From a virus, in IMG/VR virus record IMGVR_UViG_3300020213_000071, positions 1 to 35,873 of that record: 35,873 nucleotides of DNA; one strand, 5' to 3'. Position numbers and translations under genes: made by a program. Below, piece after piece: positions 6,576 to 31,470 of the stretch; position 1 is the stretch's first letter; each line of letters begins with the position of its first letter. Below the pieces are notes generated by a model. It was given only the letters and a program-made list of their open reading frames with translations. It searched no databases and had not been told where the DNA came from.

Positions 6576-6579
6576 GTCC

Positions 6580-7188: not shown

Positions 7189-7202
7189 AAGAGGAGACCA
7201 CG

Positions 7203-7900: not shown

Positions 7901-8082
7901 GGCGCCCGGAGCCGTGCGTATGCGGTGGGACCATCCTGGGCGACTCCGAGGCGCCTGGGCCCGCTGTGATGGCGCACGGGCGATCCCCGCGGCACCAGGC
8001 GTGGCGCCTCGGGCTGCGGGTGGTGAACGACGGCTGGAGCGGCGACGGCCTGCCCGTCCAGCGTCTGGAGCGTCGGGCATGA
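7897..8082 (+). CDS. small hypothetical protein
   Basis: A 61-residue protein with a GTG start in a GTGA overlap and a stop in an ATGA overlap with the replication gene. One CVCGG motif is near the N-terminus; the remainder is Arg/Trp/Gly-rich. No family or function is recognised. Confidence 0.5.
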   Translation: MRRPEPCVCGGTILGDSEAPGPAVMAHGRSPRHQAWRLGLRVVNDGWSGDGLPVQRLERRA

Positions 8083-8906: not shown

Positions 8907-9534
8907 CCGCTATCGCACCAGGACGCTCGCCTCGTTCATCCCCGTCAACGACAACACCCGGCGCGCCAAGGATGCCGCGGAGCGTGTCGTCCGGGGCGAG
9001 TTCCGGTCGATGGTCCTGGTCGGTCCGCCCGGCGCGGGCAAGACCCACCTGGCGGCCGCGATCTGGTCCGCGATCCACCAGTCGACGTACGGCGCCTGGC
9101 AGGAGGCGCGGACCAGAGCACTGGCCGAGTTCATGCCGCCGCCGCCGTTCTACTGCCCCGAGTGGTGCAACGTGGCAGAGCTGGTGTCGGACCTTCGCGG
9201 CGAGATGGGGAGCGAGCTTCACTCGGCCCGTGATCGGTCGGTGCGGCTGCGGTCCTACCCGGCGCTGGTGGTCCTGGACGATCTGGGCCGGGAGAAGGCG
9301 AGCGAGTGGACCGGCGAGTTGATCTACGTCCTGGTCAACGCCCGGTACGAGGCAGGTCTGCAGACCGTGGCCACGTCGAACCTGGGGCCCGACGAGCTGA
9401 CCGCCAACGGCTACTGGCCGGCCATCAGCCGGCTGGCCGAGGACGGGGTGCTGTTCCGGGTCGATGCGCCCGACCACAGGCTTCGGGGGCGCGCCGCGAC
9501 GGCGCGCGTGCTCGACCAGAGGATCACAGGATGA
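8890..9534 (+). CDS. DnaC/IstB-like AAA+ ATPase, putative helicase loader
   Basis: A 214-residue ATPase of the DnaC/IstB group. Walker A is GPPGAGKT at residues 45-52, Walker B is LVVLDD at about 126-131, and sensor 1 is in VATSNL with Asn164. The N-terminal SFIPVNDNTRRAKDAA segment is the usual lead-in of this family. A CPEWC pair at about 89-93 is an insertion between the Walker motifs. DnaC-type proteins load the replicative helicase onto origin DNA. Following a replication protein with origin-like repeats, this is the likely role here. No phage helicase or polymerase was seen, so it probably recruits the host DnaB-type helicase. Confidence 0.88.
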   Translation: MRSVPDRYRTRTLASFIPVNDNTRRAKDAAERVVRGEFRSMVLVGPPGAGKTHLAAAIWSAIHQSTYGAWQEARTRALAEFMPPPPFYCPEWCNVAELVSDLRGEMGSELHSARDRSVRLRSYPALVVLDDLGREKASEWTGELIYVLVNARYEAGLQTVATSNLGPDELTANGYWPAISRLAEDGVLFRVDAPDHRLRGRAATARVLDQRITG

Positions 9535-9791
9535 GCGCGTTCGACCAGGCGATCCCATCCGGCGCCATGCGCGGCAAGGACTACCAGATCGAGCTGACGG
9601 GCGGGCCGATGGACGGCGATCGCCTCGACGTTCGGCCGGAGCACCCGCTGCCGTCGATGGACCCGAAGCCCTACCTGGCCATCACGGTGGGCTGCTGGTG
9701 TTCCTCCTGCGAGCACGGCGGCATGTACCGCCTGGCTGGCCTGGGACCATCCGGCGACTCGATGATCTACGTCTGGAGCCACGATGTCTGA
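9531..9791 (+). CDS. hypothetical protein with GGPMDG motif
   Basis: An 86-residue protein. ELTGGPMDGDRLDV near residue 22 is a conserved motif of small uncharacterised phage proteins, and CWCSSC forms a possible metal site. The ATGA start overlap follows the ATPase gene. The 3' end overlaps the next gene by eight bases. Function is unknown. Confidence 0.6.
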   Translation: MSAFDQAIPSGAMRGKDYQIELTGGPMDGDRLDVRPEHPLPSMDPKPYLAITVGCWCSSCEHGGMYRLAGLGPSGDSMIYVWSHDV

Positions 9792-10026
9792 GTTCAGGGC
9801 ATGGCGGACCTGCGAGGTCTGTGGCCACGCCGCCAACGAGCCGGAGGTCCAGCCATCGGTGGTCAAGCTGCCGGACGAGACGGACAGCCGCGGGAGGGTG
9901 GCCGCTCTCGGCGCGTACCTGGACGTGATCCGCTGCCGGCGCGTGGCGGAGTGCCGGGTCCGGGCCGACGCCGCGGGCCGAGCCTGGCCGTTCGAGCAGT
10001 CCCGCCACGCAGGAGGTCGACCGTGA
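9784..10026 (+). CDS. small zinc-binding hypothetical protein
   Basis: An 80-residue protein with CEVC plus a nearby His (CEVCGHAANEP) and two later cysteines (IRCRRVAEC), enough for one zinc ion. The rest is mixed charge. Its stop overlaps the GTG start of the RusA-like gene, so the two are probably co-translated. Confidence 0.55.
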   Translation: MSEFRAWRTCEVCGHAANEPEVQPSVVKLPDETDSRGRVAALGAYLDVIRCRRVAECRVRADAAGRAWPFEQSRHAGGRP

Positions 10027-10466
10027 CGTTCACCAGGTTCACCGATGGCGCCGGGCAGCCGCCGTCCGTCGAGGGCACGCTGCGCATCCAGATCCCAGGA
10101 CGACCGCCGACGCCGAACGCCCGGTTCGGCAACCGCTACGCCCAGGCATCCGAGACGAAGCGCTGGCGCCGCACGGCCTGGGCGATCGCGCTCGACGTGG
10201 TCAACCGGTCCGGCTGGCGTGCGCCGGCGAAGGCGCGGCTGACGATCACGTTCATCGTCCCGGACCACCGGCCCAGGGACACCGACAACCTGGTGTCGAG
10301 CGTCAAGCCGCTGATCGACGGCCTGGTCGACGCGAAGGCCCTGGTGGGCGACCGGTCCACCGTGCTGGAGTGGGCCGCGCCGATCATCGACGTGGTTCGG
10401 AACGCGAGCGCCACCGAGTTCCTCATCGAGGTCATCGACCCGCCGCCATCGACGCTCGGCCTGTGA
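10023..10466 (+). CDS. RusA-like Holliday junction resolvase
   Basis: A 147-residue protein of the RusA family. Diagnostic segments are an N-terminal strand ending in PTPNARFG, and RPRDTDNLVSSVKPLIDGLV with the metal-binding Asp residues, the Asn and the conserved Lys. KALVGDRS and a final strand (TEFLIEVID) follow. RusA cuts four-way DNA junctions, which form during annealing-type recombination and must be removed before packaging. It fits with the YqaJ/RecT pair upstream. The start is a GTG overlapping the previous stop. Confidence 0.88.
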   Translation: MTFTRFTDGAGQPPSVEGTLRIQIPGRPPTPNARFGNRYAQASETKRWRRTAWAIALDVVNRSGWRAPAKARLTITFIVPDHRPRDTDNLVSSVKPLIDGLVDAKALVGDRSTVLEWAAPIIDVVRNASATEFLIEVIDPPPSTLGL

Positions 10467-10705
10467 TGAGGCGCCGTCCGTACGCCCACACCGACTCCCG
10501 CGGCCGGGCCAAGGTCGCCTTCACGACGCTGGATCGGGCGGTGGCGGTGGCGCGCCGCCAGGCCCGCGAGCATGGCTGGCCCCAGGACGTCTACGTCTGC
10601 CGGCGCTGCTCGTCCTGGCACCACGGCACCGGCAGCACCAGCGCCATCCAGGCGCCACGCGTCATCCGGGTGTGGCCCGATGGCGAGGTGGTGGTCGCGG
10701 GCTGA
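10466..10705 (+). CDS. small basic zinc-finger-like protein
   Basis: A 79-residue protein starting in a TGATG overlap. It is rich in Arg, with YVCRRCSSWHHGTG as a Cys-x2-Cys-x3-His-His site near residue 50. Proteins of this size and pattern sit before terminase genes in many phages but have no known role. It ends the early/replication chain and is followed by a promoter-like sequence. Confidence 0.6.
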   Translation: MRRRPYAHTDSRGRAKVAFTTLDRAVAVARRQAREHGWPQDVYVCRRCSSWHHGTGSTSAIQAPRVIRVWPDGEVVVAG

Positions 10706-10716
10706 CGGACGCGGTG

Positions 10717-10722
10717 TAGGCT
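10717..10722 (+). promoter_or_regulatory. candidate -10 box, possibly leaderless
   Basis: TAGGCT fits the TANNNT -10 pattern common in high-GC Gram-positive bacteria. It lies six bases before the ATG at 10729, the spacing expected if transcription starts at the start codon itself. A near-identical TGTAGGCT occurs at 18658-18665. No -35 was seen. It would drive the terminase and head genes. Confidence 0.45.
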
Positions 10723-10728
10723 ACGGCG

Positions 10729-10877
10729 ATGACCACCGAAGCACCCCCAGCCCTTCGCTCCAGGATCGTCGGCAGCGGCGAGGCCGACCCCGCGGCCCTG
10801 TCCAGCAGGTCATCGTGAACCGGACCACCGGCCACCTGGTGGATGGCCACCTGCGGGAGGCCACCCATGTCGTCTGA
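10729..10877 (+). pseudogene. remnant of a ParB-like nuclease-domain gene
   Basis: The first frame encodes a short start (MTTEAPPALRSRIVGSGEAD...), which resembles the beginning of ParB-like phage proteins, and stops at 10818. Another frame then gives QQVIVNRTTGHLVDGHLREA, the core ParB-like strand and DGH-R motif, ending at 10877. The roughly 30 codons normally between these parts, and everything after the DGH-R motif, are missing. This indicates an internal deletion with a frame change plus a truncation. ParB-like proteins of this type often precede the terminase in phages of high-GC hosts. The 29-codon 5' frame could still be translated. The small terminase starts at 10867, inside the remnant. 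Confidence 0.6.
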
Positions 10878-11370
10878 CGAGTGGGGCGTGGTCGAGCCGC
10901 ACGTCCCGGCCATCCCGGCGACCACGGAGACGACACCACCCAGCCCTGCGCCGGTGTGGCCCAAGTGGGCGCCCGTCTTCCTGGATCTGTTCGCGCAGTC
11001 CGGGAACGTGATGCTCTCGGCCCGCGGCGCCGGCGTCGATCGCACCTGGCCGTACCGGGTGAGGGCCGCGGACCCGACGTTCGCTGCGGCATGGGCGGAG
11101 GCGGACGAGACGAGCACCCAGGTTCTGGAGGCCGAGGCGCGCCGGCGGGCCATGCATCAGTCGGACCGGCTGCTGGTGTTCCTCCTGAAGTCCAGGCGCC
11201 CCGAGGTCTACCGGGAGAACCACCGCATCGAGCACGTGGGCGATGGTGGCGGCCCGATCCAGACGCAGGCCCTGGTGCCCGTCGAGCTCACGGACCATGA
11301 GCGCTCCGCGCTGCGTCGCGCCATCGACAGCGTGCTTGCCTCAGAGGCTGCCGCGGAAACTGTTCAGTGA
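10867..11370 (+). CDS. terminase small subunit
   Basis: A 167-residue protein. A disordered Pro-rich N-terminus is followed by a helix-turn-helix type segment (SGNVMLSARGAGVDRTWPYR), then AADPTFAAAWAEADE, the typical next helices of small terminases, which recognise phage DNA for packaging. The C-terminal part is likely the oligomerisation region. GGGAGG at 10855-10860 precedes the ATG; an in-frame ATG at 10843 is possible but less well placed. The large subunit follows through a GTGA overlap. Confidence 0.85.
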   Translation: MSSDEWGVVEPHVPAIPATTETTPPSPAPVWPKWAPVFLDLFAQSGNVMLSARGAGVDRTWPYRVRAADPTFAAAWAEADETSTQVLEAEARRRAMHQSDRLLVFLLKSRRPEVYRENHRIEHVGDGGGPIQTQALVPVELTDHERSALRRAIDSVLASEAAAETVQ

Positions 11371-12755
11371 AGCAGACACCGCCACGAATAGACCCGTCAT
11401 TGAACCGCCATCCGGCGACGGTGGTGACACTCTCCGCTCAGCCGCGTCACGTCCTGGAGCAGATGCGCCGCGAGCTGGGCCCCCGGTTCGCCTCACCGGA
11501 GCAGGAGCGCTTCTTCGACAGCCAGGCCAGGGAGCTGCTGTACTCCGGCTGGATGGGCGCGGGCAAGAGCCGCATCCTGTGCGAGAAGGGCTGGTACATC
11601 GCGCGGACCTTCCCGGGCGTGACGGTCGGGCTGTTCCGCAAGGTCGCCGCGTCGCTGCCCGCCACCACGCTGCGGACGTTCACCAGGGACGTGATGGACC
11701 TGGGGCTGATCGAGTCGCGGAACCTCACCGAGAGCTGGTACCAGCTGCGCAACGGATCGCGGGTCTACTTCCTGGGCCTGGACCCCAACCCCGTCACGGG
11801 CGTCCCGTCCAAGATCGGCTCGCTGGAGCTGGGGTGGGCCGGCGTCGATGAGGCGGTCGAGCTGAGCGAAGGGGACTGGACGATGCTGATGGGGCGCCTC
11901 CGTGACCCGCGCGTCCCGTACCACCAGATCGCGGCGGCCACCAACCCGGCCGACCCGAAGCACTGGCTGAAGGTCCGGTTCACGCCCGGCGACCAGGAGC
12001 ACGAGTACCTCCAGGCGTCCATGAACCGGATGCTCCCCAGCGACTACCAGGCGATCCTGGACGCCCTGCCCGACAACGCGATCGGCCGGCGCCTGGGCAA
12101 GGGCGAGTGGGCAGCGGTCGAGGGTGCCATCTGGACGCTGCCACCGGACCAGGTCAAGCCGCCGACGCAGGACCCGAAGCGTGTCGTGGCCGGCGTGGAC
12201 TGGGGCTTCGTTCACCAGTTCGCGGTGGAGGTGGTGGGCCAGAGCGGCAGCGGCCGGCTGGGCGTGCGTGCCGAGCTGTACGCCGCGGGCAAGGCGCTCG
12301 ACCAGCTGGTGGAGCCGTGGATCGGTCCTGGCGGCGTGCGCCCGGGGATCGCGCAGCTGTGCGAGGAGCACGACGTCTCGACGCTGGCGTGCGACCCGTC
12401 CGAGCCGTCGTTGATGGCGCAGCTGGAGCGCCTCCTGGGCGAGCACCGCGGACGCCATGGGTCGGCTTGCCGGCTGCGCGCCAGGGTCAAGGCCGCCACG
12501 AACACCGTGAGCACCGGGCTGCAGGCGGTGGACAAGGCGATGCGCCAGGGCATGACCGTCGACCCATCGTGCGCCGGGCTGCTGGGTGAGATCCCTGGCT
12601 ACACCTGGGCGCCGAACCGGGCGGGCGGGTTCCACGAGCGGCCCGTCGAGGTGGGCGATGACGCCTGCGATGCGCTGCGCTACGCGGTGATGGAGTTCGA
12701 GCCTGACACCACCAACCCCTGGGCGGGCATGGTGAGCGCCGGCGGCGTGGCGTGA
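11367..12755 (+). CDS. terminase large subunit
   Basis: A 462-residue packaging motor with both expected domains. The ATPase part has a Walker A variant SGWMGAGKS at residues 60-68 and the Walker B acid pair D161-E162 in GWAGVDEA. The nuclease part has acidic residues D278 (AGVDWGF), D343 (ACDPSEP) and D435 (DDACDALRYA). These match RNase H-like terminase nucleases, which cut concatemers at packaging. Length is normal for the group. It starts at a GTG overlapping the small-subunit stop. The arrangement small subunit, large subunit, portal is standard. Confidence 0.95.
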   Translation: MKQTPPRIDPSLNRHPATVVTLSAQPRHVLEQMRRELGPRFASPEQERFFDSQARELLYSGWMGAGKSRILCEKGWYIARTFPGVTVGLFRKVAASLPATTLRTFTRDVMDLGLIESRNLTESWYQLRNGSRVYFLGLDPNPVTGVPSKIGSLELGWAGVDEAVELSEGDWTMLMGRLRDPRVPYHQIAAATNPADPKHWLKVRFTPGDQEHEYLQASMNRMLPSDYQAILDALPDNAIGRRLGKGEWAAVEGAIWTLPPDQVKPPTQDPKRVVAGVDWGFVHQFAVEVVGQSGSGRLGVRAELYAAGKALDQLVEPWIGPGGVRPGIAQLCEEHDVSTLACDPSEPSLMAQLERLLGEHRGRHGSACRLRARVKAATNTVSTGLQAVDKAMRQGMTVDPSCAGLLGEIPGYTWAPNRAGGFHERPVEVGDDACDALRYAVMEFEPDTTNPWAGMVSAGGVA

Positions 12756-13015: not shown

Positions 13016-13185
13016 ACACCCGCGTCCCGATCCTTGATGTCGTCCTGGTGCTGCTGGTGGTGGGCCTGGCGCTCTCGCCCTGGCCATGGCTGGCGCTCGC
13101 CGCCGCCGCCGCGTACTTCGCGGTGCTGGCGCTCATCATCGACCGCCGCGAGCCGCCGGCGGATCAGCACCAGGACGACCGGTGA
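13012..13185 (+). CDS. small two-pass membrane protein
   Basis: A 57-residue protein with hydrophobic segments at about residues 6-22 and 24-45, followed by an acidic/polar tail (DRREPPADQHQDDR). GTGA overlaps link it to genes on both sides. A membrane protein between terminase and portal is unusual. Possible roles include lysis timing or superinfection exclusion; neither can be chosen from the sequence. Confidence 0.55.
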   Translation: MNTRVPILDVVLVLLVVGLALSPWPWLALAAAAAYFAVLALIIDRREPPADQHQDDR

Positions 13186-15407
13186 GCGTCCGCATCCCTC
13201 CCCGTCTCCAGGGCCCGAACGCGGCAGCTGGCACGCTGGGCGACTTCTCCCGCGCCAGCAAGGCTGGACCGCTGGGGCCTGGGGCGGGCAAGCTGATGAC
13301 CGAGTACCTGCTGCCCGGGATGCTGCCCAGCCAGCCGCAGCAGCGGATGAGGAAGGCGTGGCAGATCGGTGAGAGCGTGGCCTACGTCTTCGCCGCCGAG
13401 CGGGTCATCAGCGGCAAGGTCGCTGGCATGGCCCCTGTCCGGCCGGACGATGAGAACGGCGTGGGCTGGCACCTGGAGGACCCGGACGGCGAGTCGATCA
13501 CCGACGCCTACCCGGCCATGGCGGCCCGCGAGGCGTTCCAGATCCTGAGCAAGCCCATGGGTGGGCTGTCGCTGGATGAGGCCGGTGGCGCCCGCCAGTC
13601 GCGGCGCACGCAGTGGGAGCTGACCAGCCGCCACGCCGGTCTGTGCGGCACGGCGTTCTGGGTCCTGGACGGCATCAACGCCTGGGGCTTCCCGCGGGCG
13701 ATCCTGTACTGCCGACCCGACCGGCTGCGACCCGACGCGCCCAAGGGCGTGCTCCTGGGCTGGCGCCTGGACGCGGGCGAGCCAGGCAACCCGGAGGGCA
13801 CGTTCCTCTCGCGCGACGAGGTGGTGCCGTTCTATCTGCAGGCACCGAACGAGGGCTTCCTGGCGCCCGGGCTGGTGGACGCGGCGGTCACCAAGGCGCA
13901 GCTGAACGGAGCCATCGACCGCTACTTCACCCAGGTCATCGCCGCCGGCGGACGGCTGTCCGGCGTCATCGCGCCGCGCGACGGGCGCATCGACGACGAC
14001 AACGTCTACAACCAGCTGCTGCGGGACTGGCGCAACATCACCGAGCAGCCGGAGGCCGCCAAGCGGCTGCAGGTCGTCCGCGCGCCGGTCGACTTCACCA
14101 GGACGGTGAACACCCCCGCGGAGATGGGCCTGATCGAGCTGATGTCCCGCAACCGAGACGATCTGCTCGCGCTGTGGGGCGTGCCGTACTCCCAGGTCGG
14201 CGGATCGCCCGCGGCAGGTATGGGCATGGGCGAGGCGCGCGACTCCGACCGCCAGGCGCTGTGGGAGAACGCTGTCACCCCCCGGCTGACGATGCTGGCC
14301 GAGCCGATCCAGGATCTGCTGGACCGCCTGGAGCCGGAGCTGGGCTGGGCACCGCGCTTCATCCTGGACCTGCCCGAGCTGGAGCCGGACGCCACCAAGT
14401 GGGACCGCGCCAAGAAGTCCGAGACGGTGGCCATGCGCAACGTCGAGCGCCGCGCGCTGGTCGGGCTGCCTCCCTTCGGGGAGGACGTCATGGGGCCGAC
14501 CGGACGGCCGATGGACGAAGAGGTCTGGATGCCGCTGAACATCCAGCCCATGGACGACGGGTCCATGCCTTCCTCGTTGACGCCACCCGAGCCGGAGCCA
14601 CCACCCGTCCAGGGCGAGACGGATGAGGAGGCCCAGGTCGAGGACGACCAGGAGGACGCGGAGGACGCGATCGAGGAGGGCGCGCCCACCGAAGAGGTCG
14701 GCGCTGCCAAGGCGCGGCTGCCCGGTGGCATGGGCAGGCTGCGCGCCACGCTCGACAGGCGCGTGACGCCGGCGCTCCAGAAGGCCGTCCTGCATGTGCT
14801 CGACCAGCAGCGCGAGGACGTCGCGCGGCGCGTCCAGCGCGCCTGGGCCCGCATCAGTGAGCACCCAGGCGACGAGCAGGCGTGGTGGCCATCCGAGAAG
14901 AAGTCGAACGACGCGATGCTCCGAGCCATCAAGCCGGCGCTCGTGGGCGTGGGCGAGGTGGTGGGCGACCACCTGGAGAAGGCGATGGGTGCACGGAAGG
15001 CCGGAAGCCTGGGCGCCGCGTCCAAGCGCGCCGTCCAGTTCGCTCTCACCCGGGGCTCAGCCCGTGTCACGCGCATCGACCAGACGACCAGGGAGGGCCT
15101 GCGTCGGCTGATCGCGGAGGCCGTCCAGAAGGGCATGTCGCCGGCGGAGGCGGGAGAGCTGGTCCGGTCCTGGTCGGGCTTCGGAAGCTACCGCGCCGAG
15201 CGCATCGCGCGGACCGAGCTGATGTTCGCGTACAACGCAGCAGCGCTGGACTCCTACGCTGCGCTTGGCGCCGAGAAGGTCCAGGCGATCGACGGCGACG
15301 ATGACGAGGAGTGCGCCGCGCGCAACGGCCAGGTCTACACTCTCGCGGAAGCGGAGTCGATCGAGGACCATCCCAACGGGACGCTGGACTGGGCTCCCGT
15401 CCTGTAG
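13182..15407 (+). CDS. portal protein fused to MuF-like head morphogenesis domain
   Basis: A 741-residue protein. Residues about 30-470 are a portal of the HK97/SPP1 type, with typical stretches such as RYFTQVIAAGGRLSG and RNRDDLLALWGVPYSQVGG. The portal is the dodecameric ring through which DNA enters the head. A long acidic linker (about 480-510) leads to a helical region and then a MuF-like domain at the C-terminus with AERIARTELMFAYNAA, a conserved Asp-rich turn (GDDDEECAARNG) and DHPNG. Many MuF proteins have HPNC instead of HPNG. In other phages the two are separate genes; here they form one frame. The GTG start overlaps the previous stop. Confidence 0.85.
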   Translation: MSVRIPPRLQGPNAAAGTLGDFSRASKAGPLGPGAGKLMTEYLLPGMLPSQPQQRMRKAWQIGESVAYVFAAERVISGKVAGMAPVRPDDENGVGWHLEDPDGESITDAYPAMAAREAFQILSKPMGGLSLDEAGGARQSRRTQWELTSRHAGLCGTAFWVLDGINAWGFPRAILYCRPDRLRPDAPKGVLLGWRLDAGEPGNPEGTFLSRDEVVPFYLQAPNEGFLAPGLVDAAVTKAQLNGAIDRYFTQVIAAGGRLSGVIAPRDGRIDDDNVYNQLLRDWRNITEQPEAAKRLQVVRAPVDFTRTVNTPAEMGLIELMSRNRDDLLALWGVPYSQVGGSPAAGMGMGEARDSDRQALWENAVTPRLTMLAEPIQDLLDRLEPELGWAPRFILDLPELEPDATKWDRAKKSETVAMRNVERRALVGLPPFGEDVMGPTGRPMDEEVWMPLNIQPMDDGSMPSSLTPPEPEPPPVQGETDEEAQVEDDQEDAEDAIEEGAPTEEVGAAKARLPGGMGRLRATLDRRVTPALQKAVLHVLDQQREDVARRVQRAWARISEHPGDEQAWWPSEKKSNDAMLRAIKPALVGVGEVVGDHLEKAMGARKAGSLGAASKRAVQFALTRGSARVTRIDQTTREGLRRLIAEAVQKGMSPAEAGELVRSWSGFGSYRAERIARTELMFAYNAAALDSYAALGAEKVQAIDGDDDEECAARNGQVYTLAEAESIEDHPNGTLDWAPVL

Positions 15408-15422: not shown

Positions 15423-16385
15423 ATGACCGGTTCCCTGGCCGCTGGCCATGCCGCGCGGGGCGCCGGCATCCTCATGTCGCTGTTCGACCTGCTCAGCACG
15501 GAGGCGGACGAGCCTGAGCAGGTCGCCATGCTCACCGACGCGATCGACGCGGTGAACCGCTGGCTGACCGCGGAGCGCGCAGAGGTCGGATCGCCCGACG
15601 ACCTGGCCGCGTACCAGTCCACGTACCCAGGCGTGAAGGCGTGGCCCGCCGCCATGAAGGCGGAGCCGATCACCGAGGGATCGCAGCTGGACCGCTGGCT
15701 GGGTGGCCTGATCCCGCGCCGCATCCTCATGGTCCCGTTCGGCGGACCGCTGCCTGGTGGCAAGTCAGGGCTCGACATCGACGGCGAGTACTTCGACGGC
15801 GACACCGACCTGTACGGGCCGTTCCCGCTGCTGCGCACGTCCCGCGACCGCCTGGTCGACTGGCACCACGGCATCGACCCCAAGGGCGCCATGAAGGGCG
15901 CCATCCTGGGCCGCGTGGTCATGGACGGGAAGCCCGAGGCGGACGGGCTGTGGGCGGACTTCTGGGCGAACGCAGGAGAGAAGCGGCGCGAGCTGGTGGC
16001 CGCGCTGGAGCGCCGAGGCGTTCCGCTGTTCGGCTCGTCCCAGGCGATCACGTCCGCGGTCCGCGGCGGCAAGGCGTACCGCGACCCATCGCCGGACGGC
16101 CACCTTGACGTGTGGCCTATCGTTCGACATACGATCACGACCAGCCCGCAGAACACCCTCGCCGTGGTGCCCGCCCTGAAGGCGATGCTGACGGCCGATC
16201 TTCCTTCCGACGCCACGAGCAAGGCCGCCTGGCAGGCGGCATTGCTGGGCCAGGACGCACCATCGCGCTCGACCGCTCCCGAGGGATCGGACCCGATCGC
16301 CGCTGGCATGGCGCCCGAGACGTTGAAGAAGCTGGAGCAGGTTCTTGACGGCGTGACCGTCCTGGTGACCGCTCTCCGATCCTGA
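15423..16385 (+). CDS. prohead (capsid maturation) protease
   Basis: A 320-residue protein matching phage prohead proteases. Characteristic parts are ILMVPFGGP, DIDGEYFDGDTDLYG, an HH pair at residues 148-149 (DWHHGIDP) and GSSQAITSAV with Ser205/Ser206. DVWPIVRHTITTSPQNTLA follows, the usual strand before the third catalytic residue. His and Ser are the likely catalytic pair. This enzyme trims scaffold and capsid N-termini during head maturation. The C-terminal helical region could serve as scaffold. AAGGAG lies six bases before the ATG. Confidence 0.82.
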   Translation: MTGSLAAGHAARGAGILMSLFDLLSTEADEPEQVAMLTDAIDAVNRWLTAERAEVGSPDDLAAYQSTYPGVKAWPAAMKAEPITEGSQLDRWLGGLIPRRILMVPFGGPLPGGKSGLDIDGEYFDGDTDLYGPFPLLRTSRDRLVDWHHGIDPKGAMKGAILGRVVMDGKPEADGLWADFWANAGEKRRELVAALERRGVPLFGSSQAITSAVRGGKAYRDPSPDGHLDVWPIVRHTITTSPQNTLAVVPALKAMLTADLPSDATSKAAWQAALLGQDAPSRSTAPEGSDPIAAGMAPETLKKLEQVLDGVTVLVTALRS

Positions 16386-16404: not shown

Positions 16405-18033
16405 ATGGACCCCAGCGCGTTCATGCGCTACTCCGGGAACGCGGCCGGCCACGCCGCGTACATGGCCGTCTGGCTCGCGCTCGTCGCGGTCGGGGCGGTG
16501 CCCATCGGCACCCGCAAGAACGGTGATCCCATCTATCCCATCGCGGGCGGCGACGGCACGGGCGACCTGTCCGCCCGTCTCGACACGCTGCTCGGTGAGC
16601 TGCGTCGCGTCACCGAGGTGCGCGATGAGTCGAACCCTGCAGCCAAGGCCGCCGACGGTGGGCGATACGCCGCCGCCATGGACGCGTCCGCGATCCTCGC
16701 TGGCAAGCTGGCCGAGGCCGAGTCGCAGCTGGCTGCACTGAAGGCGACGGACGTCGCCACCGCGCGCAAGGCGGAGATCCAGGCCGCTGTGGTCGAGGCG
16801 CTCCACAACGCACGGAACCCCAGCGTCGCAGGCGCCGTGATGGCTGGAGCCGCCATGGCGGCGAGCCACGGCAGCGCTCGGTTCAAGCCGGGCGCTGGCT
16901 TCTCCGGCAAGGCCCACGCGGTGCTGGACGCGACCTTCCGCGAGTACCAGTCGGGCGAAGTGCTCCAGGCGATCATGGGCTACAAGGGCCAGCTGTCGGA
17001 CGGTATCGACATCGACACCGTCAACGCCAGCAAGGCGAAGCTCGAAGAGCTGGGCATGATCTGGCTCGGCGTCCCGCAGGCGTCGAAGGCGACCCTCGGC
17101 ACGACCAACGCGACCGGCGGCTACGTGCTGCCGAACAACCTGGTCGACACCGTGGTCAAGCCGGCGACGCAGAAGGCCGTCCTGCAGAACCTGGTCACCG
17201 TCATCAACGGCGTGAGCGTCCGTGGCGTCGACCAGCCGTATCGCCTGGGCGCACCCACCCGGATGACGTTCCAGGACTGGGGCACGACCAAGGAGAACGT
17301 CAACGAGACGTACGGCTCCTACACGGCCAACCTGGGCACCCTCGCCCGCGTCATGGACATCTCCAAGCAGTACGCCCGCTTCTCCGCTGGCGCTGCCGAG
17401 GTCGACGTGATGGACGAGCTGACCCGCGCGGCGATCCTGGCCGAGAACTACTACATGATCGCGGGTGCCGGAACGGGCGCCTCCGGCACGGGTGACCCCA
17501 CCACGGGTGTCTACACGGCGCTGAACGGGACGCCGACGTTCCTCGGCTACAAGGGCGCGTTCTCGGGTGCCAGCAACAGCACGGTGGCCGGATCGGGCGC
17601 CGCTGCGATGGCTGCGCTCCTGGGCTCGCTGGCTGGTCGGAACCGCGAGGCCACGGCCATCCTGGTCGACTCGGTCACCTACTGGACGATGATCGCCCAG
17701 GGCTCTGACACGGCCGGCTTCTGGGTGTCGCCAACGGGCGGGCCCACCGGGTTCACCCGCACCGAGTCGGGCGGGCTGGCGTTCTGGGGCGTGCCGCTCT
17801 TCTACGACACGAACCTGGGCACGAACGCTGCCACCAAGGTCGCCATCGCGGCGGACTGGAAGGCGTTCAAGCTCTACCGGGGCATGGAGTTCCGCATCGA
17901 CTCCAGCGACACCGCGGGCGATCGCTGGGACAAGAACCTGATCGGCTTCCGCGCGGAGGAGGAGATCGGCTTCAACGCCATGACCGCCGTCCACGTGGGC
18001 GCGGCGCAGATGCTCACGAGCGTCATCCCGTAG
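16405..18033 (+). CDS. major capsid protein, HK97 fold
   Basis: A 542-residue protein. The first about 200 residues contain a hydrophobic stretch (about 15-34) and a long Ala/Glu-rich helical part that resembles the delta/scaffold region of HK97 coat proteins and is probably removed by the upstream protease. The coat domain begins near residue 238 with GGYVLPNNLVDTV. It continues with segments typical of the HK97 fold such as VDQPYRLGAP, a DISKQYARFS strand, and FWGVPLFYDTN near the end. It forms the icosahedral shell. AAGGAGG at 16389-16395 gives a strong start. A hairpin follows the stop. Confidence 0.92.
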   Translation: MDPSAFMRYSGNAAGHAAYMAVWLALVAVGAVPIGTRKNGDPIYPIAGGDGTGDLSARLDTLLGELRRVTEVRDESNPAAKAADGGRYAAAMDASAILAGKLAEAESQLAALKATDVATARKAEIQAAVVEALHNARNPSVAGAVMAGAAMAASHGSARFKPGAGFSGKAHAVLDATFREYQSGEVLQAIMGYKGQLSDGIDIDTVNASKAKLEELGMIWLGVPQASKATLGTTNATGGYVLPNNLVDTVVKPATQKAVLQNLVTVINGVSVRGVDQPYRLGAPTRMTFQDWGTTKENVNETYGSYTANLGTLARVMDISKQYARFSAGAAEVDVMDELTRAAILAENYYMIAGAGTGASGTGDPTTGVYTALNGTPTFLGYKGAFSGASNSTVAGSGAAAMAALLGSLAGRNREATAILVDSVTYWTMIAQGSDTAGFWVSPTGGPTGFTRTESGGLAFWGVPLFYDTNLGTNAATKVAIAADWKAFKLYRGMEFRIDSSDTAGDRWDKNLIGFRAEEEIGFNAMTAVHVGAAQMLTSVIP

Positions 18034-18039
18034 CGATCC

Positions 18040-18064
18040 GGGGAGGGACATCATGTCCCTCCCC
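18040..18064 (+). terminator. hairpin after the capsid gene
   Basis: GGGGAGGGAC and GTCCCTCCCC form a perfect 10-base-pair stem with an ATCAT loop, six bases after the capsid stop. There is no T-run, so it may be a weak or factor-assisted terminator, or a stability element that limits reading into the next cassette. Confidence 0.5.
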
Positions 18065-18084
18065 ACCACCGAAGGAGACTCGCA

Positions 18085-18657
18085 TTGACCAGACGACCTA
18101 TCGCATGGCCGACGATGACCACGCGGAGGGTCATCGTCGGGGCGATCACGGCGCTGCTCGCGTGTGCGCTCATGGCGCCGGGGCTCGCATCCGCATCCGT
18201 CAGTCACTACATCACGGTGTCCGGCCCGGACGGGCTGGAGTCGTGGCCCGTCACCTACGTGGTGGGTGGGGCCAACGACGGCGCGAGCGTCGTGACCGAC
18301 CCGAAGTGCGGGACGGACGCCCAGGACTTCCGCGCCGTGTTCTACGACCATGGCGACTACAACGGGGACCGGGTCATCCTGTGCCGTTCCCAGCCCGACT
18401 TCTGCTGGGTCCCCGGCCACGGGTACCCGCTTTCCGTCTCGTGCGGGTGGTGGTCGAACAACCTGAACGACGAGGCCCTGAGCATCATCGTCGGGTCCAT
18501 CAAGACCGACGGCGGGTGCCTCCGGTACTTCGAGCACGCCGGATACGACACCGGGGCTCGGACGGTCCGGCTACGGGAGAACACCTGGTATCCGTCGATC
18601 CCGCAGGTCGCGGGTCGCGGGTCATCGGTCAAGAGGCTCTTCGCCGGACAGTGCTGA
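18085..18657 (+). CDS. secreted beta/gamma-crystallin-like protein
   Basis: A 190-residue protein. Basic residues 2-15 and a hydrophobic segment at about 16-34 form a signal peptide with a likely cut after ASA at 35-37. An LLAC at 24-27 is only a poor lipobox. The mature part has six cysteines and two Greek-key-like units: FYDHGDYNG (Y-x4-Y-x-G) with NDEALSI, and FEHAGYDTG with GSSVKRL. These resemble beta/gamma-crystallins and the crystallin-fold protease inhibitors of Streptomyces. GAAGGAG at 18071-18077 points to the TTG start; an ATG at 18115 is an alternative. A secreted protein between capsid and tail genes is unusual. Function is inferred from fold only. Confidence 0.6.
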   Translation: MTRRPIAWPTMTTRRVIVGAITALLACALMAPGLASASVSHYITVSGPDGLESWPVTYVVGGANDGASVVTDPKCGTDAQDFRAVFYDHGDYNGDRVILCRSQPDFCWVPGHGYPLSVSCGWWSNNLNDEALSIIVGSIKTDGGCLRYFEHAGYDTGARTVRLRENTWYPSIPQVAGRGSSVKRLFAGQC

Positions 18658-18659
18658 TG

Positions 18660-18665
18660 TAGGCT
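18660..18665 (+). promoter_or_regulatory. candidate -10 box before the sugar-modification genes
   Basis: TAGGCT, three bases after the stop of the secreted-protein gene, is preceded by the same TG as at 10715-10716. An ATG follows five bases downstream at 18671, close to the spacing of a leaderless mRNA. No -35 is evident. It would drive the methyltransferase and glycosyltransferase genes. Confidence 0.4.
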
Positions 18666-18670
18666 GCGCG

Positions 18671-18745
18671 ATGTCGGTCGGCGGGACGCTTCACCCGCCG
18701 GCCGGCTTCACGCCTTTGGAGCATCGGAAGGGAAGCACCCGATGA
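18671..18745 (+). CDS. possible 24-codon leader peptide
   Basis: An ATG directly after the promoter-like TAGGCT opens a 24-codon frame that ends in an ATGA overlap with the methyltransferase. The first half of this frame lies in a strong hairpin. A leader peptide controlling or coupling translation is possible. It could also be chance, and no protein motif supports it. Confidence 0.3.
   Translation: MSVGGTLHPPAGFTPLEHRKGSTR
18673..18706 (+). promoter_or_regulatory. strong hairpin in the methyltransferase leader
   Basis: GTCGGTCGGCGGG and CCCGCCGGCCGGC pair over 13 positions (two G-T wobbles) around an eight-base loop. It begins eight bases after the TAGGCT box, so it would lie at the very 5' end of that transcript. 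It could be an attenuator, a stabilising 5' structure, or a terminator for the upstream gene. Confidence 0.5.
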
Positions 18746-19458
18746 CAGAGCATCAGATCCAGGACGCCATGTTCCTCTCGCCTCACGGGCAGCCGTACGT
18801 GATGGCGGTCCGCGCAGACACGTCGGACTGGAACACCGCCAACGCCTGCGCCGGCAGCAACGACGAGTACTCGATCCCCACGGGCCTGGCGGGCTGGGCG
18901 GTCGACGTCGGCGCCCACATCGGCGCCTGGTCCGTCCCGCTGCTGATGGACAACCCCGACCTTCGCCTGGTGGCCATCGAGGCGCTCCCGGAGAACGTCC
19001 TGCTCCTGCAGCGCAACCTGGCGGTCAACGGGCTGGACGCTCGCGCCGTGGTGGTCCATGGCGCCGCGAGCGACACGCTCGATCCCGTGCGCATCAGCTA
19101 CACCGAGGGCGACGACCTCCACGAGTTCATCGGCGGTGCCGGCCGGTCAGGGCGGAGCGTCCAGGTCCCCGGCGTCACGCTCGACAGGGCGATCGAGCTG
19201 ACGGGCGCGGAGCGGGTCGCCATCCTGAAGTCCGACTGCGAGGGCTGCGAGTACCCGTTCCTATGGGGGTCGGGCCTGCGCCACGTCGCCTTCATCACGG
19301 GCGAGCACCATGCTGGCTTCGCGCCGCTGGTCGTGGCGCTCCAGGACACCCACACCGTCAAGATCATCGACGGGACCGAGTCGTTCGGGCACTTCGAAGC
19401 GACGCTCCGGTCGTACTACGCCGCGCTGCTCGCACCCGTGCCGGGCACCCCGGAATGA
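18742..19458 (+). CDS. FkbM-type SAM-dependent methyltransferase
   Basis: A 238-residue protein of the FkbM family, which usually O-methylates sugars or polyketides with SAM. SAM-binding signs are VDVGAHIGAWSVPLL (motif I) and IEALPENVLLLQRNL (motif II). ILKSDCEGCEYPFLW is the family's characteristic K-x-D-x-E-G-x-E-type block. The next three genes look like glycosyltransferases, so methylation of a transferred sugar is a reasonable guess. A GGAAGGGAAG ribosome site precedes the ATG. The stop overlaps the next start by ATGA. Confidence 0.85.
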   Translation: MTEHQIQDAMFLSPHGQPYVMAVRADTSDWNTANACAGSNDEYSIPTGLAGWAVDVGAHIGAWSVPLLMDNPDLRLVAIEALPENVLLLQRNLAVNGLDARAVVVHGAASDTLDPVRISYTEGDDLHEFIGGAGRSGRSVQVPGVTLDRAIELTGAERVAILKSDCEGCEYPFLWGSGLRHVAFITGEHHAGFAPLVVALQDTHTVKIIDGTESFGHFEATLRSYYAALLAPVPGTPE

Positions 19459-20498
19459 ACATCCTGCTGCTGACCGCTCACTCGATCGCGGCCTACGACG
19501 ACGTCCGCATGTTCACGGACCTGGGTCACGACGTCTTCAACTTGGACGCCTACATCGACCCCGCCCACCCCCATGTCGACATGCGCCCCGCGCTGCCGGA
19601 TGCACCGCGCCATCCAGAGCTGATCGCGGCTGTGGACAGGATGGGGACGGCAGACAACCTGACCGCGGCCAAGGAGCGGCTGCCCGACGAGCTGATCGCC
19701 TGGGCGGACGTGGCCATCGTCCATCACTACCTGGACGCCTGGATGGCGCCGAACCACGCGCGCCTCCGGGCCGCCGGCGTGCGCACCATCTGGCGGACCT
19801 GCGGCCAGAGCGACCTGGGCCACGAGGACCGGATGAAGGCGCTCGTGCGCCAGGGCATGGAGGTGGTCCGGTACTCGCCGGCCGAGGAGCGCTTCTTCGC
19901 TCCCACCGGGCACTGGGCGGGCCAGGACGCCCTGATCCGCTTCGGCAAGTACCCGTGGGACTATCTGACATGGACGGGCCCACGCCTCGACACGCTGCCA
20001 TACGTGGCCAACGTGACCCAGGACATGGCGGGCCGCGGTGAGCACTGCGGGCTGACGTTCTGGGTCCGCGCGACGGCAGGGCTGAACGGTCGGCCGGCCG
20101 GCAAGGACAGCGAGAAGCTCCCTGGCGGTCTCGGCTTCATGCCCGAGGCCCCCATGCTGGAGTACCTGCGCCAGGCCAGCGCCTACCTCTACGTCGGCAC
20201 CGTCCCCGCGAGCTACACGCTCGGGCTGGTCGAGGCGCTGATGGTCGGCGTCCCGGTCGTCTCCATCAGCGGCGAGTCGTGGATGGGCCCCGCGGCCCTG
20301 TTCGAGGGCGCGGACCTGGCGTCCCCGCTGGTCGCGGACACCCCGGAGCGGGCGCGCGACATGCTGCGGCAGCTGGTGGACGACCCGGCGACGGGCCGGC
20401 GCTACGTCCAGCAGCAGCAGCATCGCGCCGCGGAGCTGTTCGACGTCGCGTTCGTCGGCGCGCAGTGGGACGAGTACTTGACGCGAGGCGGGCGATGA
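19455..20498 (+). CDS. glycosyltransferase-like protein (GT-B fold)
   Basis: A 347-residue protein. The first strand MNILLLTAHSIAAYDDVRMF and the C-terminal SYTLGLVEALMVGVPVVSI block match the two Rossmann domains and donor-sugar site of GT4-type glycosyltransferases. In that block the E-A-L/M-G-V-P-V-V pattern corresponds to the second half of the E-x7-E motif. The first acidic residue of that motif is not obvious, so it may be a divergent member. It is coupled by four-base overlaps to the methyltransferase and to the next gene. Confidence 0.7.
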   Translation: MNILLLTAHSIAAYDDVRMFTDLGHDVFNLDAYIDPAHPHVDMRPALPDAPRHPELIAAVDRMGTADNLTAAKERLPDELIAWADVAIVHHYLDAWMAPNHARLRAAGVRTIWRTCGQSDLGHEDRMKALVRQGMEVVRYSPAEERFFAPTGHWAGQDALIRFGKYPWDYLTWTGPRLDTLPYVANVTQDMAGRGEHCGLTFWVRATAGLNGRPAGKDSEKLPGGLGFMPEAPMLEYLRQASAYLYVGTVPASYTLGLVEALMVGVPVVSISGESWMGPAALFEGADLASPLVADTPERARDMLRQLVDDPATGRRYVQQQQHRAAELFDVAFVGAQWDEYLTRGGR

Positions 20499-21568
20499 TC
20501 CGGGTCCTGTGCGACGCCATCCACGCCGACCTGTGGGAGTCGCTCCGGCTGCTCTTCGAGGTCCGCCTGGGATGGGAGCTGTACCGGCCGGTCGGGATGG
20601 AGTGGCAGGAGCAGGGCATCTGGCGCTTCGAGCAGCACCAGCCCTACGGCGCCGGCGTGGCGCACCAGTTCCTGGACCCCTGGCCGACGGACTTCACGCG
20701 ATCGCCGGACGATCCGCTCGGGTGGTCCGAGCGGCAGGACACGACGCATCCCGACGAGTGGCTACGCCTGGTCACCCACGAGCAGGCGCGCAGCCAGCCA
20801 TGGGACCTGGTGCTGGCCACGCTCAGTGAGAACGAGCAGGGGCTCTGGCGGTTCTCCCAGGACGCCGGCGCTCACTTCGGCATCCAGGTCGGCAACCAGG
20901 GAGCGCAGAACCTCTGGCCGCTCGCGGAGTTCGGGCTGCTCAGTGTGACCACCCCGGGCTTCATCCCGTGGAGGCCGCACGTCTACTACCGCCAGGAGTT
21001 CGACCTGGATCTGTTCGCGGCCGACTACGGCGCCGAGGCCCATGACCTGGTGATGAACCGGGTCCAGTGCACCAGCCAGACGCCCGACCACGAGCGCTGG
21101 CGCCGGATGGCGGCGCTGGTGCCCGAGGCGCGCTTCCGCTGGTACGGGCACTGCGAGCCGCGCGACGAGTGGTTCGGCGGCGACCACCCGACCACGGCCG
21201 AGGTCGCGGACTCGATGCACGCGGCGCGGATCGCCTGGCATCCCAAGCGCTGGTCGGACGGCTACGGGCACGTCATCCACAACTGGTTCAGCATCGGCCG
21301 GCCGGTCATCGGGTCGGCCGGCTACTACGCCGACAAGCTCGCGGGCCCGCTGTTCGAGGAAGGCGTGACGAGCTTCGACATGGACCGCCTGACGGATGGC
21401 GACCTGGCCGGCGTGGTGCGGATGCTGCTCCACGACGAGGACCGCTGGCTGACCATGTGCGAGGCGTCGGCGCGGCGCTTCCGGGACGTGGTCGACTTCG
21501 ACGGCGAGGCCGACGCCATCAGGACGATGCTCCACGGCATCCTGAGCGATCGCCTGGTGCGGTCGTGA
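20495..21568 (+). CDS. putative glycosyltransferase-like protein
   Basis: A 357-residue protein. The N-terminal strand MIRVLCDAIHADLWESLRLLF resembles the first domain of GT-B enzymes. The C-terminal part has HVIHNWFSIGRPVIGSAGYYADKL and later regions like the donor domain of GT4-like proteins (a G-R-P-V-I turn). A middle region rich in Trp/His/Tyr is not recognised. Position between two glycosyltransferase-like genes strengthens the call, but no full active-site signature is visible. It ends in a TGATG overlap. Confidence 0.55.
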   Translation: MIRVLCDAIHADLWESLRLLFEVRLGWELYRPVGMEWQEQGIWRFEQHQPYGAGVAHQFLDPWPTDFTRSPDDPLGWSERQDTTHPDEWLRLVTHEQARSQPWDLVLATLSENEQGLWRFSQDAGAHFGIQVGNQGAQNLWPLAEFGLLSVTTPGFIPWRPHVYYRQEFDLDLFAADYGAEAHDLVMNRVQCTSQTPDHERWRRMAALVPEARFRWYGHCEPRDEWFGGDHPTTAEVADSMHAARIAWHPKRWSDGYGHVIHNWFSIGRPVIGSAGYYADKLAGPLFEEGVTSFDMDRLTDGDLAGVVRMLLHDEDRWLTMCEASARRFRDVVDFDGEADAIRTMLHGILSDRLVRS

Positions 21569-21720
21569 TGCGACATCATCGGACCGCACCCATCCACACC
21601 GAGAACGCGCGGAACGGCCCGCCACGCCTCGATAGGCCCCCAGGTGGTGCGTTCCCATGGTCCGTGGACCTGCGAGGCACACGGGGCGCCGTGGGCGCCA
21701 CACAGGCGATCGGGGCGTGA
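21568..21720 (+). CDS. very small hypothetical protein between sugar genes
   Basis: A 50-residue frame that starts in a TGATG overlap and stops in a GTGA overlap with the next gene. It is basic, Arg/Pro/Gly-rich and without domains. The tight overlaps are the only evidence for translation. Without it, the third glycosyltransferase would have a leader of about 150 bases. Confidence 0.35.
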   Translation: MRHHRTAPIHTENARNGPPRLDRPPGGAFPWSVDLRGTRGAVGATQAIGA

Positions 21721-23048
21721 CGCGGCTGCTGATCCTGGGTGACACCGCCGGCACCGGGTTCGGGACCGTCACCCGCGACCTGGCCAGCGCGATGGTCGAG
21801 CGCGGCGACGACCTGCGCATCGTCTCGATGAACGAGGACGCCTCCCACCGGACAGACCCGGGCTTCCCGCGGAACCTGCGCGATCTCGTGGTGGTCCTGG
21901 GCCACGAGGACGGATGGCTCGCGCTGGGCGCCATGACCGACGATGGCCAGGACGCACGCCTGCAGCTGCTGGACCTGGCGCGGGGGGTGTTCACCGGCGC
22001 CACCATCCCGGGCTGGAAGCCAGAGGCGGTGCTGATCATCGGGGACGTCGCCAGCCTGAAGCTGTCTCCTTGGCCCGCCATGCTGCCGCCGGAGCTGCCG
22101 GCGTTCAACTACGTGCCCATCGAGGGCGTCGGCATCCCGCCGCGGTGGAAGCACGTCTGGGATCGCATCAGGCCCGTGGCCATGTGCGGGTTCGGCGCGG
22201 ACCAGATCGAGGGCGTCATGGGCGAGCGACCCCCGGTCGTGCTCCACGGCGTGGACCCGCACGCCTTCTGGCCCGTCTCCGACAGGCGCCCGCTGACGAT
22301 GCAGGTGGGCAAGCGCAAGCACGTCTCCCTGCGATCGCGCGCGGAGTGCCGGCAGTTCCTGGGCTGGCCGCTGGACGCCACCATCCTGTTCCGCGCGGAC
22401 CGGCACATGCCCAGGAAGAACTACGCCGCGCTGCTCCGGGAGGTCGCACCCGTGCTGGCCAGGCACCCGGAGACGGCGCTCATCTGGCACTGCCGCTCCA
22501 TCGACCAGGGCGGCGACCTGATGGACGAGGCCAGCAAGTACCCGGACTTCATCGCCGCGCGCATGGCCACCACCGGCTTCCACGACGATCCGTCGGTGGG
22601 CGGCGTGCCGCGGCCCGTGCTCAACGCGATGTACAACGCCGCGGACCTGTACGTCACCACCAGCGCGGAGGGCTTCGGGCTGACCATCGCGGAGGCGCTC
22701 GCGGCCGGCACGCCCGTGGTCGGGCTGGACTACTCCAGCGTGCCGGAGGTCATCGGGCCTGCGGGGGTGACAGTGCCCGTGGTCTTGCAGGACAATCCCT
22801 ACAGCTACTTCTGGGCGATGCCCAGGCCAGGCTCCTTCACGGAGGCGGTGGAGCGCCTGGTGGTCGATCGTGACGAGCGTCATCGGCTCGGGCTCATGGG
22901 CCCCGGGCATGTGTCCAGGTTCAGCTGGGAAGCGGCAGCCGAGCAGTTCAGTGCCATCGTGGCGGGAGCCGAGGCCCCGGCCCCCACACCGGTCCCGTTG
23001 GACCGGCGCCTGGCAGCACTCGGGCTCGTAGGAGCGCACCGCCAGTGA
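21717..23048 (+). CDS. GT4-type glycosyltransferase
   Basis: A 443-residue glycosyltransferase with clear GT-B/GT4 features. The N-terminal strand reads RLLILGDTAGTGFGTVTRDLA, with a Gly-rich turn for the acceptor domain. A CGFGADQIEG segment is mid-chain, then ILFRADRHMPRKN marks the start of the donor domain. EGFGLTIAEALAAGTPVVG supplies the classic E-x7-E nucleotide-sugar site. The start is the GTG overlapping the upstream stop, since the Rossmann fold begins immediately; an in-frame ATG at 21657 is possible. Its stop overlaps the head-tail connector (GTGA), so it is co-translated with virion assembly genes. Confidence 0.88.
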   Translation: MTRLLILGDTAGTGFGTVTRDLASAMVERGDDLRIVSMNEDASHRTDPGFPRNLRDLVVVLGHEDGWLALGAMTDDGQDARLQLLDLARGVFTGATIPGWKPEAVLIIGDVASLKLSPWPAMLPPELPAFNYVPIEGVGIPPRWKHVWDRIRPVAMCGFGADQIEGVMGERPPVVLHGVDPHAFWPVSDRRPLTMQVGKRKHVSLRSRAECRQFLGWPLDATILFRADRHMPRKNYAALLREVAPVLARHPETALIWHCRSIDQGGDLMDEASKYPDFIAARMATTGFHDDPSVGGVPRPVLNAMYNAADLYVTTSAEGFGLTIAEALAAGTPVVGLDYSSVPEVIGPAGVTVPVVLQDNPYSYFWAMPRPGSFTEAVERLVVDRDERHRLGLMGPGHVSRFSWEAAAEQFSAIVAGAEAPAPTPVPLDRRLAALGLVGAHRQ

Positions 23049-23764
23049 ACCTCATCGTGACCGCCAGCCAGGTCCGGGACTACCTGGAGCTGAACAGCCC
23101 GGGCTCGACCAGCCGCTACTCCGACCAGACGATCGGGTCGAACATCCGAGGCGCGCAGAGCGAGCTGGAGTCGGTCTGCCATCGCTTCTTCTACGACCAC
23201 CCAGGCGTCACGTGGGCGACCACCACCATGCTCCAGGCGCAGGTCGCCATGCCCGGGTTCCGCACGATCACGAGCGCGGTGTGGGGTGGCGCGACGCTGA
23301 GCGTGGCGGTCCCTGGCGACGGCAACGACTCCCCGTCCGCCTGGGGTCTGTGGGAGGCGTCGCCGGGCGTCCCCGACAACCAGCGCCTGGTGATCGCGCT
23401 CCAGTTCCGCGCATGGCGCGCCGACAACGACATGCCGTGGTGGTACGCCGACCCGCGCTGGTGGGACAAGGCGCTCGACAGCCCGTTCTACCCGGGCAAC
23501 TACGGAGGCGGTTACGCCTGGACGTCCATGCCCAACGACCTGGTCGTCGTGGGCGATGGCGGTTACACCGCGGGCAACGAGCCGGAGGCGGTCAAGGAGG
23601 TGGTCAAGATCTACGCCGCCTGGAAGACGCTGCGGCCGTCCGGGCTCATGGGCGGTATGGGGATCACGCCTGGCGGTGGGACCACCGACTACAGCAGCCT
23701 CCCGCCCGAGGTCCGGGACTTCATCGCGGACTGGTCCATCGGGCAGCAAGTGGCGTCGATGTGA
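23045..23764 (+). CDS. head-tail connector (adaptor) protein
   Basis: A 239-residue protein directly before an HK97-gp10-like gene. The N-terminal helices (VTASQVRDYLEL, then a QTIGSNIRGAQSELESVCHRFF segment) are like those of gp6-type connectors that bind below the portal. The middle is Trp/Tyr-rich with possible beta structure. The C-terminal helix (PEAVKEVVKIYAAWKTLRPSG) also fits. Identification rests on gene order plus helical pattern. The GTG start overlaps the glycosyltransferase stop. Confidence 0.6.
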   Translation: MNLIVTASQVRDYLELNSPGSTSRYSDQTIGSNIRGAQSELESVCHRFFYDHPGVTWATTTMLQAQVAMPGFRTITSAVWGGATLSVAVPGDGNDSPSAWGLWEASPGVPDNQRLVIALQFRAWRADNDMPWWYADPRWWDKALDSPFYPGNYGGGYAWTSMPNDLVVVGDGGYTAGNEPEAVKEVVKIYAAWKTLRPSGLMGGMGITPGGGTTDYSSLPPEVRDFIADWSIGQQVASM

Positions 23765-30570: not shown

Positions 30571-31470
30571 GTGGGTCTGATCAATCTCTGGACGCAGGTC
30601 CGCAAGCAGCTGCGTCCCCAGCACGGCGGAACCGGCAACGTCGAGGGCTGGTCGACGGGCGTCATCAAGATCAGCACCAACCGGACCGGGTCGACCATCG
30701 CGCTCGACACCCTGGTCAAGCTGGAGGGCGCGTACAACGATGCGCGCATCACGCCCACCACCGGGACCAGCGACAAGGTCGTCGGCGTGGTGGTCGGCCA
30801 CTGGACCATCGACGATCCGGACACGCTGATCTACGCGGCCGCGCCCAGTCCGTCGACCGTCGCGGTGATGACGCACGGAACCGCCCGGGTCAAGCTGGCA
30901 TCGGGTGGCGCCACCCGAGGCCAGTACGCTTTCCCGACCGCCACGAGCGGCGCAGCGTCGAGCTCGGCCACGGCGGCAGCAGGAGCGTTCGGGGTGTTCC
31001 AGGGATCGGGCGGCGCCAGCGGCACCGCCCTGGTGACGCTGACCGGCACCCAGGGCGCCGGCATCGGAGCGGCCACGAGCTTCGCCACGCCGGCGCTCAC
31101 GCTCGGCACCGCCAACGCGGCCGGCGCAGCATCGACCGCGATCCGCACGGATGCCACGGTGCTGGCCTTCGACGTCACCACGCCAGCCGCGCTCACGCTG
31201 GCCGGAGCGGGCGCCGTGGGCGCAGCTGCGGTAGCAGCGCGCCGGGACCATGCGCACGCCGTCACGGGCGCCCTGGACGCCATCAGTGACGTGACCGCAC
31301 CCACCCCCGCGTCCGGGGACCGTCTGGTCTGGACGGGCTCCGCGTGGGTCAACCGTCCGCCCGCCGCCGATACGCTCATCTGGCGACCGCTCATGGACGG
31401 GGCCGTCCCGGGTGCCATCATCCTTGACGGGGTGACCGGCGAAGCCATCATGGCCCTGAGTCCACCCTAA
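30571..31470 (+). CDS. tail fibre protein with one RDHxH module
   Basis: A 299-residue protein. GTG is taken as the start because the only nearby ATG in the gap (30563) opens just five codons. The N-terminal part (about 1-150) is beta-rich. A 60-residue module ending in ARRDHAHA spans residues about 171-230, and a short C-terminal domain follows (SGDRLVWTGSAWVN...). The H-x-H motif resembles fibre segments that hold metal ions in trimeric phage fibres. It sits four bases after the tail-tip gene, so it is likely part of the receptor-binding apparatus. Confidence 0.7.
   Translation: MGLINLWTQVRKQLRPQHGGTGNVEGWSTGVIKISTNRTGSTIALDTLVKLEGAYNDARITPTTGTSDKVVGVVVGHWTIDDPDTLIYAAAPSPSTVAVMTHGTARVKLASGGATRGQYAFPTATSGAASSSATAAAGAFGVFQGSGGASGTALVTLTGTQGAGIGAATSFATPALTLGTANAAGAASTAIRTDATVLAFDVTTPAALTLAGAGAVGAAAVAARRDHAHAVTGALDAISDVTAPTPASGDRLVWTGSAWVNRPPAADTLIWRPLMDGAVPGAIILDGVTGEAIMALSPP
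31081..31260 (+). repeat. RDHxH fibre module, copy A
   Basis: A 60-residue repeat in frame. It starts FATPALTLGT, has a central IRTDATVLAFDVTTP segment, then AARRDHAHA. The same pattern occurs twice in the next gene with equal length. Confidence 0.75.

Follow-up and report, generated by a model that had tools for sequence, protein, structure and literature searches.

A few mycobacteriophages have been shown to carry sugars on their virions, and there this modification affects recognition by the immune system. The closest known case to the locus analyzed here appears, by gene content and placement, to be the cassette of mycobacteriophage Corndog (cluster O), whose gp35-38 comprise a methyltransferase, two glycosyltransferases and a GlcNAc transferase encoded between portal and protease and have been proposed to modify the capsid (PMC4351075). 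In another report, virion glycosylation is described for Corndog, Che8 and Myrna, and Corndog gp38 is named as essential for it (PMC12363180). The DNA stretch analyzed here, hereafter the window, belongs to a tailed phage and comprises an IMG/VR virus record of 35.9 kb. Like Corndog with its O-methyltransferase, it harbors a methyltransferase gene (MT) and three genes for glycosyl-type transferases (GT1, GT2 and GT3, in gene order) inside the structural operon; however, the set occupies the interval between capsid and connector genes instead of that between portal and protease, the slot is variable, and relatives of the window phage add genes for sugar and acyl biosynthesis. Corndog was compared by description, while searches of phage records returned no mycobacteriophage match to GT3 and no phage match at all to GT1 or GT2.

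Similar arrangements occur in two annotated phages. In Microcystis phage Mae-JY09, a glycosyltransferase resembling GT3 is encoded between the genes for the capsid and the head-tail adaptor, and in Synechococcus phage S-CBS4 a glycosyltransferase, a galactosyltransferase and a SAM methyltransferase are encoded between the portal and capsid genes, but the similarity of both to the window is confined to 22-27% identity over part of GT3, and a block corresponding to MT-GT1-GT2 was recognised in neither. Outside of phages, the viosamine island of Pseudomonas syringae (vioA, vioM, vioT, vioS, vioB, vioR, acp) is responsible for part of the flagellin glycan (PMC3927599). The island modifies a glycan carried by a polymeric protein (PMC3927599), and its logic of KAS III, ketoacyl reductase, ACP, acetyltransferase and glycosyltransferase closely resembles, in vioS, vioR, acp and vioB, that of a module found in two relatives of the window phage, the contigs L003 and L076; however, the viosamine island is bacterial, chromosomal and directed to flagellin, whereas the phage module includes an FdtA isomerase and no aminotransferase was recognised in it. 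The phage slot also shares constant flanks, exchangeable sugar-synthesis modules and type switching with bacterial O-antigen and capsule loci, but it is situated inside a head operon, and polymerase, flippase or lipid-carrier enzymes were not recognised in it. Searches of open-licence papers found no description of a phage whose head operon includes a glycan locus open to exchange.

All features of this region described below lie on the plus strand. On the 5' side of the cassette, Pfam and PHROG matches identified the terminase large subunit, a portal protein fused to a MuF-like head morphogenesis domain (13182-15407; PHROG portal/head morphogenesis) and the major capsid protein with HK97 fold (MCP, 16405-18033; PF05065 Phage_capsid, E 1e-13; phrog_10), with an unnamed gene (15423-16385) that is kept in relatives directly preceding the latter. 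On the 3' side, the gene in the connector position (23045-23764), which was assigned by synteny across relatives and has no family match of its own, is followed by the tail genes. The first-pass annotation, made from the sequence of the window, had placed a sugar-modification cassette at 18085-23048 between the capsid and the head-tail genes. This assignment holds for a FkbM-type methyltransferase and three GT-B enzymes but fails for the gene at 18085-18657. The GTGA overlap of the last cassette gene, GT3, with the connector gene was likewise rightly observed (23045-23048), and the gene 3' of the connector also starts within a GTGA overlap. A consensus scan for promoters and terminators around the cassette gave a single promoter-like site within GT3, which corresponds to the chance level, and no terminator, and a tRNA search yielded no hit.

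Directly 3' of the capsid stop codon a near-perfect hairpin was identified in the sequence (18041-18065), which is possibly an attenuator or an mRNA end element. Perfect stems of at least 9 bp, unrelated to each other, occur 3' of the capsid gene in 13 of 85 relatives and after the position of the major tail gene in 10 of 61, while they are hardly ever found after other genes, counts in which the difference between intergenic and coding sequence acts as a confounder. It might be possible that the post-capsid hairpins are attenuators that keep the capsid in excess of the cassette transcripts. The hairpin is followed by the gene at 18085-18657, with its start at the TTG 18085 or at 18115. Its product is small, has a hydrophobic stretch near the N-terminus and is predicted to be secreted, and its sole homologue occurs in the related contig L004 (62% identity). 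Searches of Pfam, PHROGs and NCBIfam gave no family above cut-off for it, and PDB sequences yielded no convincing match; the product is neither a methyltransferase nor a glycosyltransferase. In some relatives, short proteins with approximately 40% Ser, Thr and Pro are encoded directly 3' of the capsid gene (L017:11584-11754, L021:11554-11730, L024:9206-9382), which are candidates for glycan acceptors.

The four enzymes of the cassette proper could be assigned with the help of family matches and structure prediction. MT (18742-19458) belongs to the FkbM family of SAM methyltransferases (PF05050, E 1e-12; TIGR01444 above cut-off), and the alignment displayed an intact and conserved SAM-binding motif; its target is, according to the neighboring genes, probably a sugar hydroxyl. 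GT1 (19455-20498) and GT2 (20495-21568) are both joined to the preceding gene by ATGA overlaps. GT1 matched Glyco_trans_1_2 just under the cut-off and GT2 has no Pfam family, while both are predicted to adopt the GT-B fold. The AlphaFold2 models reached a pLDDT of 96.7 for GT1 (50 relatives) and 94.6 for GT2 (46 relatives), with GT-B enzymes as best PDB matches, for example BshA for GT1 (E 3e-11) and HepE and PglA for GT2 (E 7e-10). GT3 (21717-23048) is a GT4-type enzyme with PF13692 and PF00534 above cut-off and an E-x7-E motif (E338 and E346) that is invariant in the homologue alignment; codon usage and the same kind of alignment indicate the GTG at 21717 as its likely start. Hence, all three glycosyltransferases of the window are GT-B enzymes, GT1 and GT2 according to their models. 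By hydropathy, MT, GT2 and GT3 are free of strongly hydrophobic segments, and GT1 has a borderline one. In comparison with L004, dN/dS values of approximately 0.27-0.35 were obtained for GT1 to GT3, which are close to that of MCP and therefore point to purifying selection, whereas MT reached approximately 0.9 versus approximately 0.3 of its neighbors. The MT protein thus changes much faster and is possibly under diversifying or relaxed selection. Relatives of GT1 and GT2 were not found in 50,697 phage records, so there is no sequence tie to any experimentally tested virion glycosyltransferase, and Chloroflexota genomes provided only partial, generic GT-B matches to the two proteins, which give no functional clue.

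The distribution of the cassette was followed in viral contigs that were collected in scans with the capsid alignment (72 loci) and with the GT1 alignment (73 loci), to which the L numbers refer. Profile searches found a GT3 homologue between MCP and the connector-side gene in each of the 45 capsid-fetched contigs holding both genes, some few of which are near-identical copies. The glycosyltransferase search did not produce this result, since the capsid by itself suffices to retrieve these contigs. GT1 and GT2 are also present in 28 of the 45 contigs, mostly in the order MT-GT1-GT2-GT3, and are missing in 17. The identity of MCP among these relatives falls to about 30-36%, and adjacent cassette genes overlap by 1-8 nt in 257 of 376 pairs. 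The cassette is neither a chance arrangement nor an accident of one contig, because the block keeps its slot in dozens of diverged relatives. Relatives of MCP were not found among isolated phages.

In contigs that lack GT1 and GT2, a GT-A gene follows the capsid gene and GT3 precedes the connector gene, as seen in 23 typed contigs, and the module between these two glycosyltransferases differs by contig; several of its genes are named from a reading of the sequence. The module of L003 and L076 encodes an FdtA-type isomerase, a GNAT protein, a putative ACP, an SDR protein and KAS III, that of L028 and L031 an epimerase, an Asn-synthase-like, an SGNH-like and a hexapeptide transferase protein. 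A cytidylyltransferase is found in L019, L026 and L030, and methyltransferase-like genes with further glycosyltransferases in L044 and L050. Some contigs with the other arrangement (type A) also carry an epimerase or extra GT-A-like genes. The FkbM-type MT and the three GT-B enzymes of the window fit an assembly of glycans, as do the gene products FdtA, GNAT, SDR, KAS III, epimerase, cytidylyltransferase, Asn-synthase-like and hexapeptide transferase in relatives. Where the first-pass annotation saw a single static cassette, the comparison shows a variable and exchangeable glycan locus.

On the capsid tree (87 rows), well-supported branches record five or more changes of cassette type; for example, L005, which has type A, is the sister of L019 with type B. 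The cassettes of L003 and L076 share approximately 98% DNA identity across approximately 4.9 kb, and this homology extends from the position where translation of the leading cassette gene starts to just 5' of GT3, whereas outside of the cassette MCP is only 30%, GT3 46% and the connector protein 40% identical. Such a pattern is what type switching via module exchange would be expected to look like. A simple assembly chimera is unlikely as explanation of the match, because both contigs come from different metagenomes and the shared block is 98% and not 100% identical and differs by insertions or deletions. The window also encodes a pair of a RecE-like exonuclease and a RecT-like annealing protein (1379-3834), which might aid the swapping of modules among phages.

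The association is not restricted to one type of capsid. GT1, GT2 and GT3 were found within kilobases 3' of the capsid gene in L130 and L139, which have a phrog_1623-type capsid, as well as in L121 with a phrog_14242-type capsid (weak match), and MT is also part of the blocks in L121 and L130. The occurrence of the glycosyltransferase set near several capsid types indicates that the cassette is associated with virion genes generally and not with a single capsid lineage. The slot is not absolute outside the capsid family of the window phage, as the glycosyltransferases are located upstream of a terminase-like gene in L140 and after the connector gene in L143, in both cases at another place among the virion genes. 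In L139 the cassette is extended (4297-12745) and contains, according to its sequence, an epimerase, several GT-A-like genes and a PIG-L-like deacetylase in addition to GT1-GT3.

Collectively, it is probable that the interval specifies the glycans of the particle, i.e. that it is a locus for glycosylation of virion proteins with exchangeable modules between capsid and connector genes. From the constant slot in 45 of 45 contigs, the unrelated capsids, the soluble enzymes and the lack of promoter and terminator signals around the cassette we infer late expression and decoration of the phage's own virion, which the first-pass annotation had proposed and which is the best-supported reading. The cassette would be translated together with the late head genes, as the observed gene overlaps suggest, and presumably co-transcribed late with them. 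The three soluble GT-B glycosyltransferases would then build a short glycan, most likely attached directly to a virion protein, for example the capsid or a tail-tube subunit, and the FkbM enzyme would probably O-methylate a sugar of this glycan as cap or decoration; an O-methyl sugar, as initially supposed, is plausible. The late-operon position alone does not pinpoint the acceptor. Across the family, the slot is occupied by different glycan modules that can be exchanged and that all close with the constant GT4 gene GT3, and related phages would be expected to differ in the type of their particle sugars and to switch it by recombination at the borders of module genes.

Alternatively, the enzymes could act late in infection on sugars of the host surface, either masking receptors and thereby preventing loss of progeny on cell debris or blocking superinfection. 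The epimerases, FdtA, glycosyltransferases and methyltransferases indeed resemble loci for cell-surface polysaccharides, and the variability of the cassette would suit diverse host surfaces. However, we regard this explanation as unlikely, because the enzymes are soluble apart from the borderline segment of GT1, the cassette position follows the capsid genes of unrelated lineages, and GtrA/GtrC-, flippase- or polymerase-type membrane proteins were not recognised in the variable cassettes. Multi-span membrane proteins, which characterize Gtr-type serotype conversion, were found neither in MT and GT1-GT3 nor in the cassette families. Moreover, there was no sign of lysogeny. In a scan that covered a single genome per species for 84,980 species of bacteria and archaea, relatives of MCP appeared in only two genome sets, on short contigs, which makes serotype conversion in lysogens unlikely.

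Glycosylation of hypermodified bases in the phage DNA, which would guard against restriction, appears very improbable. Phage DNA glycosyltransferases may have the GT-B fold and the GT1 model gave a distant fold match to the phage glycosyltransferase structure 9iqz, but no hydroxymethylase, thymidylate-synthase-like or other base-modification gene was detected among the scanned genes of the window, which is maybe less than the whole genome; the cassette is placed in the head operon, and the acyl and amino-sugar modules of the relatives better suit glycans of proteins or polysaccharides. Least probable of all is that the genes are passengers of the moron kind, which settled in a permissive slot and have no role in the particle. 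Morons do accumulate in phage operons and the modules move horizontally, yet passengers would be expected to be patchy, whereas the cassette is present in every informative relative, is under purifying selection and is bracketed by constant glycosyltransferases.

Regarding the host, the two MCP relatives from the species scan are both found on contigs binned into Chloroflexota MAGs, and a third strong relative occurs on a 4.8-kb contig in a sample of 400 Chloroflexota genomes. These findings favour Chloroflexota rather than the actinobacterial context of the first-pass annotation, although mis-binning is possible for such viral contigs. Hence, we tentatively propose, with somewhat less than even confidence, that these are phages of Chloroflexota with a capsid-linked serotype locus, in which whole modules are swapped at fixed borders and the machinery is common to unrelated capsid lineages. 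If the proposed virion glycosylation is true, a locus that is always present, variable and swapped in environmental phages would imply ongoing selection on particle sugars in settings that lack antibodies, for which host surface binding, protist grazing, soil adsorption or sugar-recognising defences are possible sources. The purpose of virion glycans would then become testable by comparing different cassette types on one capsid. Finally, on the tail side of the window, two neighboring genes (30571-31470 and 31489-32412) share a common segment with 56-65% identity, and the product of the former matches a structural cement protein family slightly under the cut-off.
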